This document shows, piece after piece, positions 1 to 20,554 of a stretch of 20,554 bases of DNA. The stretch is from positions 1-20,554 of IMG/VR virus record IMGVR_UViG_3300036835_000237; one strand, given 5' to 3'. The notes under the pieces are model-generated. The model was not told where the DNA came from. It saw only the letters and a list, made by a program, of their open reading frames with translations, and did no database searches. The stretch comes from a virus. The position numbers and the translations under genes were made by a program. The stretch's first letter is position 1, and each line of letters starts with the position of its first letter.

Positions 1-153
1 TAGCGCGCCACCGCCGGGCAAGTCCCTACTGACCGGCCGTTTTCCCCCCTGAATGGCTCAGACGCCGTACGCTGAGGCGCAGTACCGTCGTACACGGGCG
101 TTGCTGCTGGGGTCGCCGGTGTTGTGCTCGGTTTGTGGGCGGGGGAGGGCGAC
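1..153. repeat. Left copy of terminal direct repeat (circular overlap)
   Basis: This segment is repeated at the right end (20402-20554). By direct comparison the copies differ only at base 27 (T here, C at 20428). After that mismatch 126 bases are identical. This is the usual sign of a circular or terminally redundant genome assembled as one contig. The repeat covers the spacer before the terminase gene and its first 34 codons. A run of 126 identical bases is close to the overlap a de Bruijn assembler leaves on a circular contig, so the repeat may be an assembly overlap rather than a physical terminal repeat. Confidence 0.93.
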
Positions 154-1801
154 GGAGCTCGACCATGACCCGCCGTTGGCGATGCACCGGCACCGCCAGG
201 GCACCAGCTGCTGCAGGCTGGTGCCGGTCTGCCATGAGTGCAACCACGCGGGCGGCTTGTTGGTGCAGCGCGGCGAATGGCGGCCCGACAGCACGGTGCT
301 GGGGGTGGAGCTCGAGCCGGAACGGCAGGGGGTCGGGCAGGATGATCGTCGGTGGCGGGTGCCGTGGCTGAGGGGCTTGCGGCGCCCGCCCGCCGGCGCC
401 GTGTGGCCCCGGTTGATGACCGTCCCCCACCCCGCCGCCACCGGCAGCTACGGGAGGGAGTTCGTCCGGTGGGCGGAGCACAGGTCGGGCCGGGAGCTCC
501 GCTGGTGGCAGCGGCTGGTGGCCGCCCGCCTGTTGGAGCACGACCCCGACGGCCGCCTCGTCTGGGAAACACTCGTGCTGTCCACAGCCCGGCAGGTGGG
601 GAAGAGCTGGCTGCTCCGGGAGCTGTGCCTGTGGCGGATCCACCAGGCGGACCGGTTCGGGGAGCCCCAGGACGTGCTGCACACCGGCAAAGACCTCGCG
701 GTCTGCAAGGAGGTGCAACGGCCGGCCCGGGTGTGGGCGAAAGCCAGGACCGGGACGTTCAAGGTGCGGGAGGTGAACGGTCAGGAAGAGATCGAGCACC
801 TCAAGGATGGCGGCCGCTGGATGCTGAGGGCGAAAGAGGCCGTGTACGGGTATTCGGTCAGCCTGGCGGTGGTGGATGAGGCGTGGAAAGTACGCCCGTC
901 CAGCGTCGACGAAGGGTTGACGCCGACGATGGCGGAACGCGAGCAAGCCCAGCTCGTCCTCGTGTCGACGGCGCACCGGATGGCGACCAGCCTCATGTTG
1001 GGCCGGCGTCAGGTGGCGCTCGCCCAGCTCGAGGACGGCGACGGCGACCTCCTCATCGAATGGAGTGCCCCCGAACGCGCCGGCCTCGACGACGTCACCG
1101 GGTGGCGGCTCGCCAGCCCGTACTGGACGCCGCACCGGGAACGGCTGATCCGCAAACGCCTGGAGGCGATCCGGTCGGGCGAGGTCGAGGACCCCGAGGA
1201 GCCCGACCCAGAGCAAAGCTTCCGGGCGCAGTGGCTGAACCAGTGGCCGCGGAAGCTCACGGAACCGGCCGGGAGCACTGAGCCTCTGCTCCCGGCCGGC
1301 ATGTGGGCCAGCCTCGCTGAACCCCTGTCGGGGGCGGGGCCGGTGTGGGTCGCCGTCGAGGACGACTACGGGCTGGGGGCGGCGGTCGCCGCGGCGGCGC
1401 GGCTCGAGGATGGGCGGATCGAGGTGGACGGGTGGCGGTGCCAGGACTGGGACGCCGCCGTCCACGATGTGCGGGTGCTATGCGAGCGGCGGTGGGTGAA
1501 CGAGATCCTGGCCGGCGCCTCTTTGGTGGGGCGGCTCCCCGACCTCGTCCCGGAGCCCGTCCCCGCCGGCGGCAAGGAAACCCGCGCCGGGCTCGCCGTC
1601 CTGCGCGAGCTCGCGTTCACCGGCCAGGTCGCCCACGACCAGGCCACCTACGACCTCGACGACGCGATCGACGCGGCCATGGTCAGGGAGGCGCCCTCGG
1701 GCCTCTACCTCGTCGCCAAAGGCGCGACGCATCTCGTCAGGGCGGCGGCGTGGGCGGTGCAGGCGGCGCACCGGTTGGAGACCGTCCCCACCATCCACTA
1801 G
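53..1801 (+). CDS. terL: Large terminase with N-terminal HNH-like zinc domain
   Basis: This 582-residue protein is the ATP-driven DNA packaging motor and the nuclease that cuts packaged DNA. Residues 22-70 form an HNH-like zinc module: C25-x2-C28, D37-H38-D39-P40, then C60-x2-C63-N64-H65. The terminase proper follows, with a Walker A-like ARQVGKS at 179-185, Walker B VVDEA at 273-277 and a coupling motif LVLVSTA at 301-307. The C-terminal half should be the RNase H-like nuclease, with acidic candidates in VAVEDD (433-438) and YDLDDAID (533-540). The ATG is preceded directly by an in-frame TGA (50-52), so the gene cannot start further upstream. No Shine-Dalgarno sequence is visible in the pyrimidine-rich stretch before it, which suggests leaderless or coupled initiation. 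No separate small terminase was found nearby. The stop codon lies inside the hairpin at 1792-1840. The terminase call is firm; activity of the HNH module is inference. Confidence 0.93.
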   Translation: MAQTPYAEAQYRRTRALLLGSPVLCSVCGRGRATELDHDPPLAMHRHRQGTSCCRLVPVCHECNHAGGLLVQRGEWRPDSTVLGVELEPERQGVGQDDRRWRVPWLRGLRRPPAGAVWPRLMTVPHPAATGSYGREFVRWAEHRSGRELRWWQRLVAARLLEHDPDGRLVWETLVLSTARQVGKSWLLRELCLWRIHQADRFGEPQDVLHTGKDLAVCKEVQRPARVWAKARTGTFKVREVNGQEEIEHLKDGGRWMLRAKEAVYGYSVSLAVVDEAWKVRPSSVDEGLTPTMAEREQAQLVLVSTAHRMATSLMLGRRQVALAQLEDGDGDLLIEWSAPERAGLDDVTGWRLASPYWTPHRERLIRKRLEAIRSGEVEDPEEPDPEQSFRAQWLNQWPRKLTEPAGSTEPLLPAGMWASLAEPLSGAGPVWVAVEDDYGLGAAVAAAARLEDGRIEVDGWRCQDWDAAVHDVRVLCERRWVNEILAGASLVGRLPDLVPEPVPAGGKETRAGLAVLRELAFTGQVAHDQATYDLDDAIDAAMVREAPSGLYLVAKGATHLVRAAAWAVQAAHRLETVPTIH

Positions 1802-1840
1802 GCTTTGTCCACCGTTTTGGTGGACAAAGCCTAGTGGATG
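1792..1840 (+). promoter_or_regulatory. Perfect 22-bp stem-loop spanning terminase stop and portal start
   Basis: Bases 1792-1813 are the exact reverse complement of 1819-1840, with a 5-base loop GTTTT (1814-1818). The terminase TAG (1799-1801) is in the left arm. The right arm contains the purine-rich GGTGGA (1819-1824) and the GTG (1834) chosen as portal start. A ribosome finishing the terminase would occupy the left arm and open the right arm, so translational coupling is the favoured reading. No T-tract follows, so it is not a classical intrinsic terminator. A processing site or an insertion scar (CTAG flanks both arms) is also possible. Confidence 0.85.
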
Positions 1841-3036
1841 AGCGGTCGCTGAACCCGGCTGCCGAGAGCGTCGGCCCCGGCGCTACCCCAGGTGACCCCA
1901 GCGGCGTCGTCATCGAGGGGGCGGACAACCCGGGCTGGTGGCCGCCGGCGATCGTCCCCTCACCGTGGGACGGGTGGCCCGCCGAGTGGGCGACACCAAG
2001 CTGGGGCGGCTACGTCCAGACCTTGACGGACACCGCCTGGATGTGCCTCGACCTCAACGCGTCGCTGCTGTCGACGATGCCGCCCTATCTGGTCGGGGCG
2101 GCGCCGACGCTGGACACGTCGTGGATGCGGAACCCTGACCCGGACGTGTACACGAGCTGGGAGGAGTTCGCGAAACAGCTGTTCTGGGACTACCAGCTCG
2201 GCGAGGCGTTCGTGGTCGCGACCGCGCGGTACGCGACGGGGTGGCCGGCCCGGTTCCACGTCGTCCCCCCGTACCTGGTGGAGGTCGAGCTGGGCGCGAA
2301 CGGGACACGGGTGTACACGATCGGCCGCGTCGACGTGTCGAGCGACATGCTCCACATCCGCTACCAGTCCTCGGTGGACGACGCGCGCGGCCACGGCCCC
2401 CTCGAGGCGGGCAGGGCTAGGGTGATCGCCGACCAGGTCCTCACCCGGTACAGCACCGGCCTGGTGACCGCCGGCGGCGTCCCCACCAGCATCCTCACCT
2501 CACCGGCCCGGCTGGACGCCGAGCAGGCGCAGATGCTGAAGAACCAGTGGCTGACCGCGAGGCTGTCCGGGATCGGGGAGCCGGCCGTCCTCAGTGGCGG
2601 GGTGACGTGGCAGGCGACCCAGATGAGCCCCAGGGACATGGCCCTGCTGGACGTCACCGGGTTCACCGAAGCCAGGATCGCGAACCTGCTCGGAGTGCCG
2701 GGCCCGCTCGTCGGGCTCCCGTCGGGCGGGGATCCGCTCACCTACAGCACCGCGGTCATGTACTTCACCCAGCACTGGCGGATCGGCCTCCGCCCGAAAG
2801 CGCAGGCGGTGATGGGAGCCCTGTCCGAGTGGGCTTTGCCGCTCGGCACACGCGTCGAGGTGAACCGGGACGCCTACATCGAGGCCGAGCCGCTCCAGAG
2901 GGCGCAGGCCGCGCAGATCCTCAACTCGATCAAGGACGCGCAGGGGAACCCGGCGTTGACCGTCGAGGAGATCCGGGAGGCGGAACGGCTCGACCAGTCG
3001 ACCGCCCCCGACGCCACCACAGGAGTCTTGCGATGA
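1834..3036 (+). CDS. Portal protein (HK97/SPP1-type)
   Basis: This protein of 400 residues would form the dodecameric ring at one capsid vertex through which DNA enters and to which the tail attaches. The sequence has the family's layout: an N-terminal part leading to TLTDTAWMCLDLNASLLSTM, a long alpha/beta body, and motifs such as RYSTGLVTAGG, MSPRDMALLDV and RIANLLGVPGPLVGLPSG, followed by a helical C-terminus. Position between terminase and prohead protease fits. The frame stays open far upstream but overlaps the terminase in another frame, so the start must be internal. GTG 1834 is the only reasonable one before the conserved region, with GGTGGA 9 bases upstream; both sit in the hairpin arm. 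The stop overlaps the protease start as ATGA. Confidence 0.9.
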   Translation: MDERSLNPAAESVGPGATPGDPSGVVIEGADNPGWWPPAIVPSPWDGWPAEWATPSWGGYVQTLTDTAWMCLDLNASLLSTMPPYLVGAAPTLDTSWMRNPDPDVYTSWEEFAKQLFWDYQLGEAFVVATARYATGWPARFHVVPPYLVEVELGANGTRVYTIGRVDVSSDMLHIRYQSSVDDARGHGPLEAGRARVIADQVLTRYSTGLVTAGGVPTSILTSPARLDAEQAQMLKNQWLTARLSGIGEPAVLSGGVTWQATQMSPRDMALLDVTGFTEARIANLLGVPGPLVGLPSGGDPLTYSTAVMYFTQHWRIGLRPKAQAVMGALSEWALPLGTRVEVNRDAYIEAEPLQRAQAAQILNSIKDAQGNPALTVEEIREAERLDQSTAPDATTGVLR

Positions 3037-12690: not shown

Positions 12691-12879
12691 ATGATCCTGG
12701 CGGTCACGGCGGGGGAGCTGCTCGCTGCGGGGGGCGCGTTCGTGACCGGCCTCGCCAGCCTCATCGTCGCGTTGACGGCGCTGATCAGCGCCGCCGCCAA
12801 GGCCAGCCACGAGATCCACGAGGAATGGCAGGAACACCATGATCAGGCAGACGCTGAACGCGATCAGGGGCACCGGTAA
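12691..12879 (+). CDS. Small single-span membrane protein (holin partner candidate)
   Basis: This 62-residue protein has one long hydrophobic segment (about 5-36) followed by a charged, His/Glu-rich cytoplasmic-type tail ([20 protein letters not shown]). It lies 3 bases after the holin-like gene and its end overlaps the next gene by 41 bases. A short hydrophobic span with a hydrophilic tail beside a two-span holin suggests a second holin, an antiholin or a spanin-like helper. None of these can be proved from sequence. Confidence 0.55.
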
Positions 12880-13243
12880 AGCCGGCGTGCTCGCCGCCGG
12901 GGCGATCGGGCTCGCCGGCGCCAGCGGGTATCTCACCTCGACCGCGCTCTCGAGCGGCCAGGCGGCCCCCGGCCGCACCGTCACCATCAACGTCGGCAGC
13001 GGCCAGCCCGGCCCCGCCGGCCCCGCAGGCCCGAAAGGCGACACCGGGCCTGCCGGCCCCGCCGGCCCACCGGGGCCGAAAGGCGACCCGGGCGCGAAAG
13101 GCGACATCGGGCCCGCCGGCCCCCCAGGCCCACCGGGGCCGGGAGGCGGGTTCACGTGCCCGAACGGGTTCACACCCGGCACCCTCGTGATCAACGCCCC
13201 CGGGGGGCACGCGACCATCTACACCTGCCTGAAAGACGAATAG
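12839..13243 (+). CDS. Membrane-anchored collagen-like protein
   Basis: This 134-residue protein has an N-terminal positively charged stretch and hydrophobic helix (about 14-38), then 16 uninterrupted Gly-X-Y triplets (residues 55-102). These are rich in GPA, GPP, GPK and GDx as in trimeric bacterial and phage collagens. The C-terminus of about 30 residues has two Cys (FTCPNGF and YTCLKDE) that could form a disulfide and act as a small trimerisation or binding head. The start ATG 12839 has an AGGA just upstream. It may be a surface protein displayed by lysogens, a lysis-cassette protein or a virion decoration. The combination of anchor, collagen and Cys-knot is clear; the function is not known. 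Confidence 0.7.
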
Positions 13244-14180: not shown

Positions 14181-15224
14181 ATGGCTGATTTGGATTACGC
14201 GATCGACGCGTTCGACGCCGACCTGGGCGTCCGCGGCAAGACCCAGGCGACCCGGACGAAGTACCGTCAGATCCTCGACCAGTTCGCCGCCCGCTACGAG
14301 CACCTGGCGCCCGGCGACATCACCGCGAACGACTGCCGCGACTTCCTCGCCCAGTGGACGCGCCCCCGCCCCCCGCGCAAGGGTACGCGCAAGACTCTGC
14401 CGCCGGCGTCCCAGAACACGCTCGCCTTGCACCACTCGATCCTCAAAGCGTTCTTCACGTTCCTCCACGAGGAGGGGCTGATCGACGAGAACCCGATGGC
14501 GAACCTGAAAGCGCCGAAGCGGAAGCGCCCCGAGTACCTGCCCGTCGTCACCACCAGCGCCGGCGACGTCGCGAGGCTGATCAACGCGTGCGACGCGATG
14601 GACGAGCTCCTGTGCGTCGGCACCCTCGCCTACATGGGGCCGCGCCGGACGGCGGCCGCGAACCTCCGCCGCGGCGACCTCGACCTCGACCAGGGGCTCG
14701 CCACGTTCAGGGAGAAGGGCGGCAAGGTGATCGTGAAGCCGATCCCCGAGGGCCTGCTGGAGCTGTACCGGGCAGCCGACGACGACGGCACCTGGCTGTA
14801 CCCGTCGGACTATGTGATCCCGAACCGGCGTGAGCCGCGCGACCCCGCGAACCGCAGCGCGAAGGTCGTGTACCAGATCCTGCAGCGGGTCGCCGACCGC
14901 GCCCGCGTCCTCACCCACCCCCACGCGCTCAGGCGGGCGTTCGCCGTCCAGTTCGACGAGCAGCACCCCACGCAGCTTCTCGCCCTGCAGGAGCTCCTGG
15001 GCCATGAGCGGGTCGAGACCACCCAGGTGTATCTGCGGCGGAAGAACATGGCGAAGGCGATGGAACAGGTGCGGGATCTGACTTTCGCGTTTCCGCCCAG
15101 TGCTGATGTGCCCCCAGCGGGATTCGAACCCGCGTTACCGGCCACCCCTGTGCCGGAGCCGCTCAGACGGAAACTCGGTGACCTGCGGGCGGAAGTCGCT
15201 GTGAGGGGGCGCGCCGACCGGTGA
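14181..15224 (+). CDS. int: Tyrosine integrase with attP core in its 3' end
   Basis: This 347-residue tyrosine recombinase integrates and excises the phage genome. Residues 1-60 form a SAM-like core-binding region (FDADLGVRGKTQATRTKYRQ). The catalytic set is R155 (GPRRTAA), K182 (KGGK), H248-x2-R251 (HPHALRR), H275 (LGHE) and nucleophile Y284 (QVYLRR). ATG 14181 is preferred: the in-frame GTG 14112 (GTGA overlap, AGGAG upstream) would add 23 codons rich in rare A/T-ending codons, unlike the gene body. The 63 residues after Y284 are unusually long. Residues about 310-318 are encoded by a tRNA-derived sequence, so site-specific integration there would replace the C-terminal tail. The stop overlaps the next start as GTGA. 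Confidence 0.92.
   Translation: MADLDYAIDAFDADLGVRGKTQATRTKYRQILDQFAARYEHLAPGDITANDCRDFLAQWTRPRPPRKGTRKTLPPASQNTLALHHSILKAFFTFLHEEGLIDENPMANLKAPKRKRPEYLPVVTTSAGDVARLINACDAMDELLCVGTLAYMGPRRTAAANLRRGDLDLDQGLATFREKGGKVIVKPIPEGLLELYRAADDDGTWLYPSDYVIPNRREPRDPANRSAKVVYQILQRVADRARVLTHPHALRRAFAVQFDEQHPTQLLALQELLGHERVETTQVYLRRKNMAKAMEQVRDLTFAFPPSADVPPAGFEPALPATPVPEPLRRKLGDLRAEVAVRGRADR
15109..15133 (-). other. attP: Probable attP core: tRNA 3' end (T-arm and acceptor)
   Basis: On the minus strand this reads GCGGG-TTCGAAT-CCCGC (T-stem, T-loop, T-stem) followed by acceptor strand TGGGGGC and discriminator A. This is an intact tRNA 3' end. No matching D-arm, anticodon arm or 5' acceptor strand (GCCCCCA) lies at the proper distance, so it is not a full tRNA gene. 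Phage tyrosine integrases commonly use the 3' end of host tRNA genes, so this is the expected attP core. Identity with the host may extend rightward. The tRNA species is unresolved; the acceptor resembles actinobacterial Arg or Leu tRNAs. Confidence 0.8.
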
Positions 15225-20341: not shown

Positions 20342-20453
20342 CAAAACAATGCGACCACTAATCCGAAAAAAATTCTGCACGCGGATTACCCCCCGAATTT
20401 TTAGCGCGCCACCGCCGGGCAAGTCCCCACTGACCGGCCGTTTTCCCCCCTGA
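20342..20453. promoter_or_regulatory. AT-rich palindromic spacer before the terminase
   Basis: On the circular map this joins bases 1-52 to form the 112-base gap between SNase-like and terminase genes. It contains TAATCCG (20359-20365) facing CGGATTA (20382-20388), and AAAAATTC (20368-20375) facing GAATTTTT (20395-20402). The two stems are mutually exclusive. Low GC is striking in this genome. It could be the terminator of the right-hand operon, the late promoter, or the packaging (cos or pac) site, which usually lies beside terminase genes. A 34-codon frame (ATG 20349 to TGA 20453) ends directly before the terminase ATG but lacks a ribosome site. Confidence 0.55.
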
Positions 20454-20554
20454 ATGGCTCAGACGCCGTACGCTGAGGCGCAGTACCGTCGTACACGGGC
20501 GTTGCTGCTGGGGTCGCCGGTGTTGTGCTCGGTTTGTGGGCGGGGGAGGGCGAC
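20402..20554. repeat. Right copy of terminal direct repeat
   Basis: Second copy of bases 1-153, with C at 20428 where the left copy has T. It contains the terminase spacer and the first codons of the terminase gene. Confidence 0.93.
20454..20554 (+). CDS. terL: Terminase large subunit, 5' fragment (second copy)
   Basis: The first 33 codons of the terminase gene, repeated because the contig wraps round. It runs off the window end and should not be counted as a separate gene. Confidence 0.9.
   Translation, partial: MAQTPYAEAQYRRTRALLLGSPVLCSVCGRGRA

Follow-up and report, generated by a model that had tools for sequence, protein, structure and literature searches.

A perfect 22-bp hairpin spanning the terminase stop and portal start of a phage genome is probably a recent templated inverted insertion

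The junction between the terminase and portal genes of a soil actinobacteria phage recorded in IMG/VR carries a perfect 22-bp hairpin that is real and not a product of chance. The hairpin probably arose through a recent templated inverted insertion between a -10 box and the portal start, at a junction where the portal gene would formerly have been expressed from leaderless or nearly leaderless mRNA. A single-step insertion of this kind is the most economical explanation of the data; a selected switch is possible, but the comparison with relatives gives it no support.

Results

The hairpin and the genes it joins

The DNA analyzed, hereafter the window, is the entire IMG/VR virus record IMGVR_UViG_3300036835_000237 (20,554 bases). 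The features relevant to this study are:

53 to 1801, + strand: terminase large subunit gene (ORF), whose TAG stop (1799-1801) lies within the left arm of the hairpin
1792 to 1813, + strand: hairpin left arm, CATCCACTAGGCTTTGTCCACC, 22 nt; proposed template of the inverted copy
1799 to 1804, + strand: TAGGCT, a putative -10 box for the portal that includes the terminase stop; proposed from the TANNNT boxes of relatives
1814 to 1818, + strand: hairpin loop GTTTT, 5 nt
1814 to 1833, + strand: proposed templated inverted insertion, GTTTTGGTGGACAAAGCCTA, 20 nt, the last 15 nt being the reverse complement of 1799-1813
1819 to 1840, + strand: hairpin right arm, GGTGGACAAAGCCTAGTGGATG, 22 nt, carrying the portal start
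1834 to 3036, + strand: portal protein gene with a GTG start (Pfam Phage_portal, 7.6e-37), N-terminus aligned with that of relative L023

The arms (1792-1813 and 1819-1840) are 100% complementary over 22 nt around the GTTTT loop, exactly as a first-pass annotation of this DNA had described. Its placement of the terminase TAG in one arm and of the portal GTG (1834-1836) and the sequence GGTGGA (1819-1824) in the other was equally accurate, as was its remark that the structure lacks a U-tract, none being found on either strand. The computed fold of the isolated 49-nt hairpin has an energy of -42.7 kcal/mol. Folding of the 1770-1870 region, a check recommended at the time, gave -60 kcal/mol against -31.7 ± 3.8 kcal/mol in dinucleotide shuffles (z = -7.5). 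With loops of 3-12 nt, the longest perfect stem in the window is this 22-bp one, the maximum in 60 dinucleotide-shuffled windows being 14 bp, and perfect stems do not exceed 15 bp in 1.04 Mb of related phage loci. These figures bear out the earlier opinion that a chance palindrome is implausible. An Rfam search with the hairpin returned weak matches to eukaryotic miRNA and snoRNA models, all under their gathering scores. The right arm also contains a mini-ORF (GTG GAC AAA GCC TAG, window 1820-1834), whose stop codon overlaps the portal GTG (TAGTG).

The closest relative, L023, has 79% identity in the terminase and 71% in the portal protein. Because the L023 portal begins with the same residues, MDERS, GTG 1834 is well supported as the portal start; the DNA at this start, GTGGATGAGCGGTC, is letter-for-letter the same in both phages. 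The terminase is matched by homologues in 20 or more contigs of IMG/VR (tblastn) and ends in ...TIH*, similar to the ...AIH* of relatives. Its N-terminus (window 53-300) has the appearance, by eye, of a fused HNH-like domain (CSVC...DHD...CHEC); the whole protein has no Pfam match.

Elsewhere in the window, 153-bp repeats occupy the two ends (1-153 and 20402-20554, with one mismatch at position 27), and a gene at 12839-13243 encodes a collagen-repeat protein (Pfam Collagen, 1.1e-6). A stretch resembling a tRNA 3′ end (CCCAGCGGGATTCGAACCCGC, window 15108-15140) lies within the end of the integrase ORF and is likely the attP core. This fragment matches tRNA-like regions across many Actinomycetota genomes and is uninformative for host assignment; the search for terminase relatives was likewise uninformative on the host.

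Related junctions lack the palindrome

Relatives were gathered from IMG/VR (loci L001-L275) and form a clade of soil actinophages. They provide 117 distinct terminase-portal junctions, in 107 of which the portal start could be assigned. The comparison with relatives sharing the gene pair, suggested by the first-pass annotation, went against its proposal of a regulatory switch: the hairpin is absent from all of these approximately 107 junctions, including that of L023, where the portal start is identical and the junction reads TAG CATCCCTCATGC GTG. Near the terminase stop, perfect stems in relatives reach at most 15 bp (L001), followed by 10 bp (L012). Both lie 0-3 nt past the stop, with the portal gene 255-898 nt further downstream (898 nt in L001). 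A search of viral contigs with a pattern made of the conserved junction ends matched L023 only and did not find the exact pre-insertion junction; searching phage records at the DNA level with the junction as query gave only chance matches. The hairpin is private to this genome and appears to be a recent, isolated change, not a switch conserved over a long time.

Added DNA tends to collect in the spacer between the two genes, which exceeds 100 nt in 35 of the 107 junctions. In Cluster O mycobacteriophages, an HNH insertion lies 1-3 bp past the terminase stop codon (PMC4351075).

A candidate -10 box precedes the portal gene in more than half of the relatives

A TANNNT hexamer ending 6-11 nt upstream of the portal start was found in 60 of the 107 relatives, compared with 4.8 ± 2.1 in shuffled sequences (maximum 12 in 1000). 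The box is present in 68% of portals separated from the terminase stop by 5 nt or more; the 19 portals with an overlapping or nearly overlapping start all lack it. In ten relatives, L023 included, the terminase TAG itself forms the first half of the box, 6-10 nt from the start; in L023 the arrangement is TAGCAT, 9 nt, then GTG. Tetramers of the Shine-Dalgarno type precede 6% of the portals versus 97% of the capsid genes at the same loci, and none of the 107 capsid genes has the TANNNT signal. These patterns point to expression of the relatives' portal gene as a leaderless mRNA from a promoter at the junction. They agree with the published hallmark of leaderless genes in Actinobacteria, a TANNNT motif about 12 bp upstream (PMC3160421; PMC3898074).

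The region upstream of the relatives' portals showed no enrichment of a -35 motif, so the proposed promoter is defined by its -10 box only; promoters of M. tuberculosis were likewise reported to be free of an enriched -35 motif (PMC3898074). A consensus promoter scan, which demands a -35 element of the E. coli type, returned no site. Other leader layouts occur in three isolated mycobacteriophages whose portals are related; two of these leaders are purine-rich and resemble a Shine-Dalgarno sequence. The designation of GGTGGA as the portal ribosome binding site does not fit this picture: 94% of the portals in the clade have no Shine-Dalgarno-like tetramer, and the GGTGGA match is weak (the last G of GGTGG lies 10 nt from the portal start).

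In the window, TAGGCT is separated from GTG by 29 nt, outside the 6-11 nt range of the relatives.

Probable origin by a fold-back template switch

Read as the reverse complement, positions 1819-1833 match 1799-1813 exactly. When 1814-1833 is deleted in silico, the junction becomes TAGGCT-9 nt-GTG, with the same spacing as L023, and the reconstructed ancestor acquires a TANNNT box within 6-11 nt of the start. The sequence GTGGATG has two roles: L023 has it at its own portal start, and it is also complementary to CATCCAC (1792-1798) in the closing bases of the terminase gene. The ten relatives whose box begins with the stop codon, with their 6-10 nt spacing, serve as outgroups that polarize the change as an insertion.

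The simplest origin for this arrangement would be a template switch. The replication fork may have folded back at the terminase-portal junction, so that the new strand copied its own fresh sequence (1799-1813) as a reverse complement and then rejoined the template at GTGGATG, using the complementarity of this motif to CATCCAC. About 20 nt would thereby have been added between TAGGCT and the portal GTG. Template switching is known to yield perfect stems in one event (PMC8794818). The 5-nt GTTTT loop is not templated. Insertion of 14 nt (1825-1838) also fits the sequence but is less likely because the ancestor would need a spacing of 15 nt, which is unusual. Against an insertion stand the absence of the exact pre-insertion junction from all viral contigs searched and the distance to the nearest relative, L023, only 71-79% identical. 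Before the event, transcription from TAGGCT probably gave, as in relatives, a portal mRNA with little or no leader. The first-pass annotation had left it open whether the palindrome was selected or inserted. The second option is the better supported, by the reverse-complement relationship and the L023 spacing; the first finds no comparative support.

Predicted consequences for portal translation

By our calculations, opening the portal start on read-through RNA from the terminase gene costs 36.6 kcal/mol. The corresponding value is 13.1 ± 4.2 kcal/mol among the 107 relatives (maximum 22.9; L023, 8.1) and 10.9 kcal/mol in the reconstructed ancestor. On RNA begun at 1811-1814, the start opens for 5.7-6.0 kcal/mol. 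The insertion would have had two effects, breaking the -10 spacing and burying the portal start on read-through RNA. Translation from such RNA would be blocked unless a ribosome occupied the terminase stop; in silico, masking a ribosome footprint at this stop raised the unpaired probability of the start codon from 0.00 to 0.58. RNA from the junction promoter (starting around 1811-1814) would have a 20-23 nt leader devoid of the left arm and would leave the start open. In these models it is physically possible both for the portal to be coupled to terminase translation and for it to escape by way of the junction promoter. The analysis shows the sequence, the fold, its absence from relatives, the -10 signal and the lack of Shine-Dalgarno sites; the template switch, the activity of the promoter, leaderless expression and any effect on portal levels are our inferences.

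Two claims of the first-pass annotation are affected. That a ribosome finishing the terminase would expose the portal start stands as a physical possibility; that the arrangement was selected for coupling is not supported, no relative having the hairpin. That the portal would be silent on free or processed mRNA is likewise not supported, given the putative -10 box TAGGCT in the left arm, RNA from about 1811-1814 being predicted to open at the low cost given above. One may speculate that the palindrome gates portal synthesis by transcript origin, silencing it on read-through RNA but not on RNA from the stop-codon -10 promoter. We regard this proposal as tentative and rather unlikely; if true, one mutation would have made the translation of a leaderless gene depend on where its mRNA originates.

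A switch selected for translational coupling, in which the hairpin masks the portal start until the terminase-finishing ribosome melts the left arm, appears distinctly unlikely. The stop and start codons do lie in opposite arms, the masking calculation does free the start, and coupling is plausible in a clade where 19 members have overlapping or nearly overlapping stop and start codons (e.g., TGATG). However, a selected structure is hard to reconcile with its absence from every related junction, L023 included, and compensatory changes in the arms cannot be demonstrated. Moreover, the Shine-Dalgarno match is weak, and the probable internal promoter would bypass the hairpin.

Other explanations for the hairpin

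It is very unlikely that the hairpin is a transcription terminator closing the terminase transcript between two transcription units. Many of the relatives' junctions do resemble a transcription-unit boundary, given the portal -10 box, and L001 and L012 have their 15- and 10-bp hairpins 0-3 nt past the terminase stop. In those loci, however, the portal lies 255-898 nt away, whereas the hairpin of the window overlaps the portal start. Neither strand has a U-tract after the stem, and the mycobacterial polymerase is said to require one, reportedly in work by Czyz from 2014.

Derivation from a dispersed palindromic repeat of a host is highly improbable. The candidate family resides in a Solirubrobacterales soil MAG, G001 (JAJKHV01; loci L103, L107, L117, L119, L121 and L157-L176), and comprises about 41 REP-like palindromes of about 45 nt with covarying arms, many of them arranged two or three in tandem at intervals of about 60-80 nt. 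A model search did not find the family in two other genomes of the genus, nor was the exact core found in 148 genomes of the class. The hairpin and the G001 repeats share the core GCTTTGTCCACC with identical core spacing (11 nt), and the family core GCTTTGTCC with 11-nt spacing is found in the window. With a covariance model built from six G001 copies, the phage hairpin reaches 39.3 bits (E = 4e-10), mid-range among the G001 palindromes, and G001 is the only match to the hairpin core in the genome collection. Yet the most conserved bases of the family, the outer TGCAACG/CGTTGCA, are missing, the window having CACTAG/CTAGTG in their place, and the phage arms consist, over their outer 7-10 bp, of the ends of the two phage genes. 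The match was picked from a 257 Gb scan, in which one or two chance matches would be expected by rough estimate. A search of viral contigs gave 12 matches to the 9-bp core hairpin, in mostly unrelated contigs, and 12 to a shuffled control. No relative of the terminase was found in 299 genomes of the G001 class, and no copy of the family in related phages. On the strength of the missing outer bases, the gene-derived arm ends, the lack of copies in related phages and the expected chance matches, we set the G001 resemblance aside as probably fortuitous.

An assembly or amplification artefact in the form of a fold-back chimera is, in our estimation, the most improbable of these explanations. Fold-back joins are known artefacts, the palindrome is present in a single record, and its exact right arm was found in no other viral contig. 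However, the sequence re-enters the portal gene in register within 20 nt, unlike typical inverted chimeras, and both flanking genes are intact.

Finally, a programmed -1 frameshift that would enter the open portal frame was considered and set aside, no slippery heptamer being seen before the hairpin by reading.

Discussion

If it arose by templated inverted insertion, the hairpin would seem to record how a long stem with the look of a regulatory element can be born in a phage in one step. The case also shows that a perfect hairpin covering a start codon does not, on its own, demonstrate a selected switch. The clade-wide portal pattern (a -10 box 6-11 nt upstream, no Shine-Dalgarno sequence, and a stop codon that sometimes forms part of the box) is undescribed in the literature consulted; it opens a direct way to test whether a structural gene is expressed without a leader.

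The hairpin has its closest parallel in template-switch hairpins and the quasipalindrome mutations of E. coli (PMC8794818; PMC7202029), with which it shares perfect reverse-complement arms, a short loop, a copy adjoining its template and a return at short homology. It differs in lying at a phage gene junction and spanning stop and start codons. The related soil phages resemble leaderless genes of Actinobacteria (PMC3160421; PMC3898074) in their TANNNT box 6-11 nt upstream and in the usual absence of a Shine-Dalgarno sequence, and leaderless promoters have been predicted in Cluster O mycobacteriophages (PMC4351075); differences are that the box begins with the terminase stop in ten relatives and that the spacing in the window is 29 nt. 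REP-like repeats are similar in palindrome size and, in the one Solirubrobacterales family, in core sequence, but the phage has a single copy devoid of the family-defining outer bases. As in translational coupling by start-masking structures (reviewed in PMC12548453), an upstream stop and a downstream start are paired in one hairpin; the window differs in its lack of conservation among relatives, its weak Shine-Dalgarno match and its likely bypass by an internal promoter.
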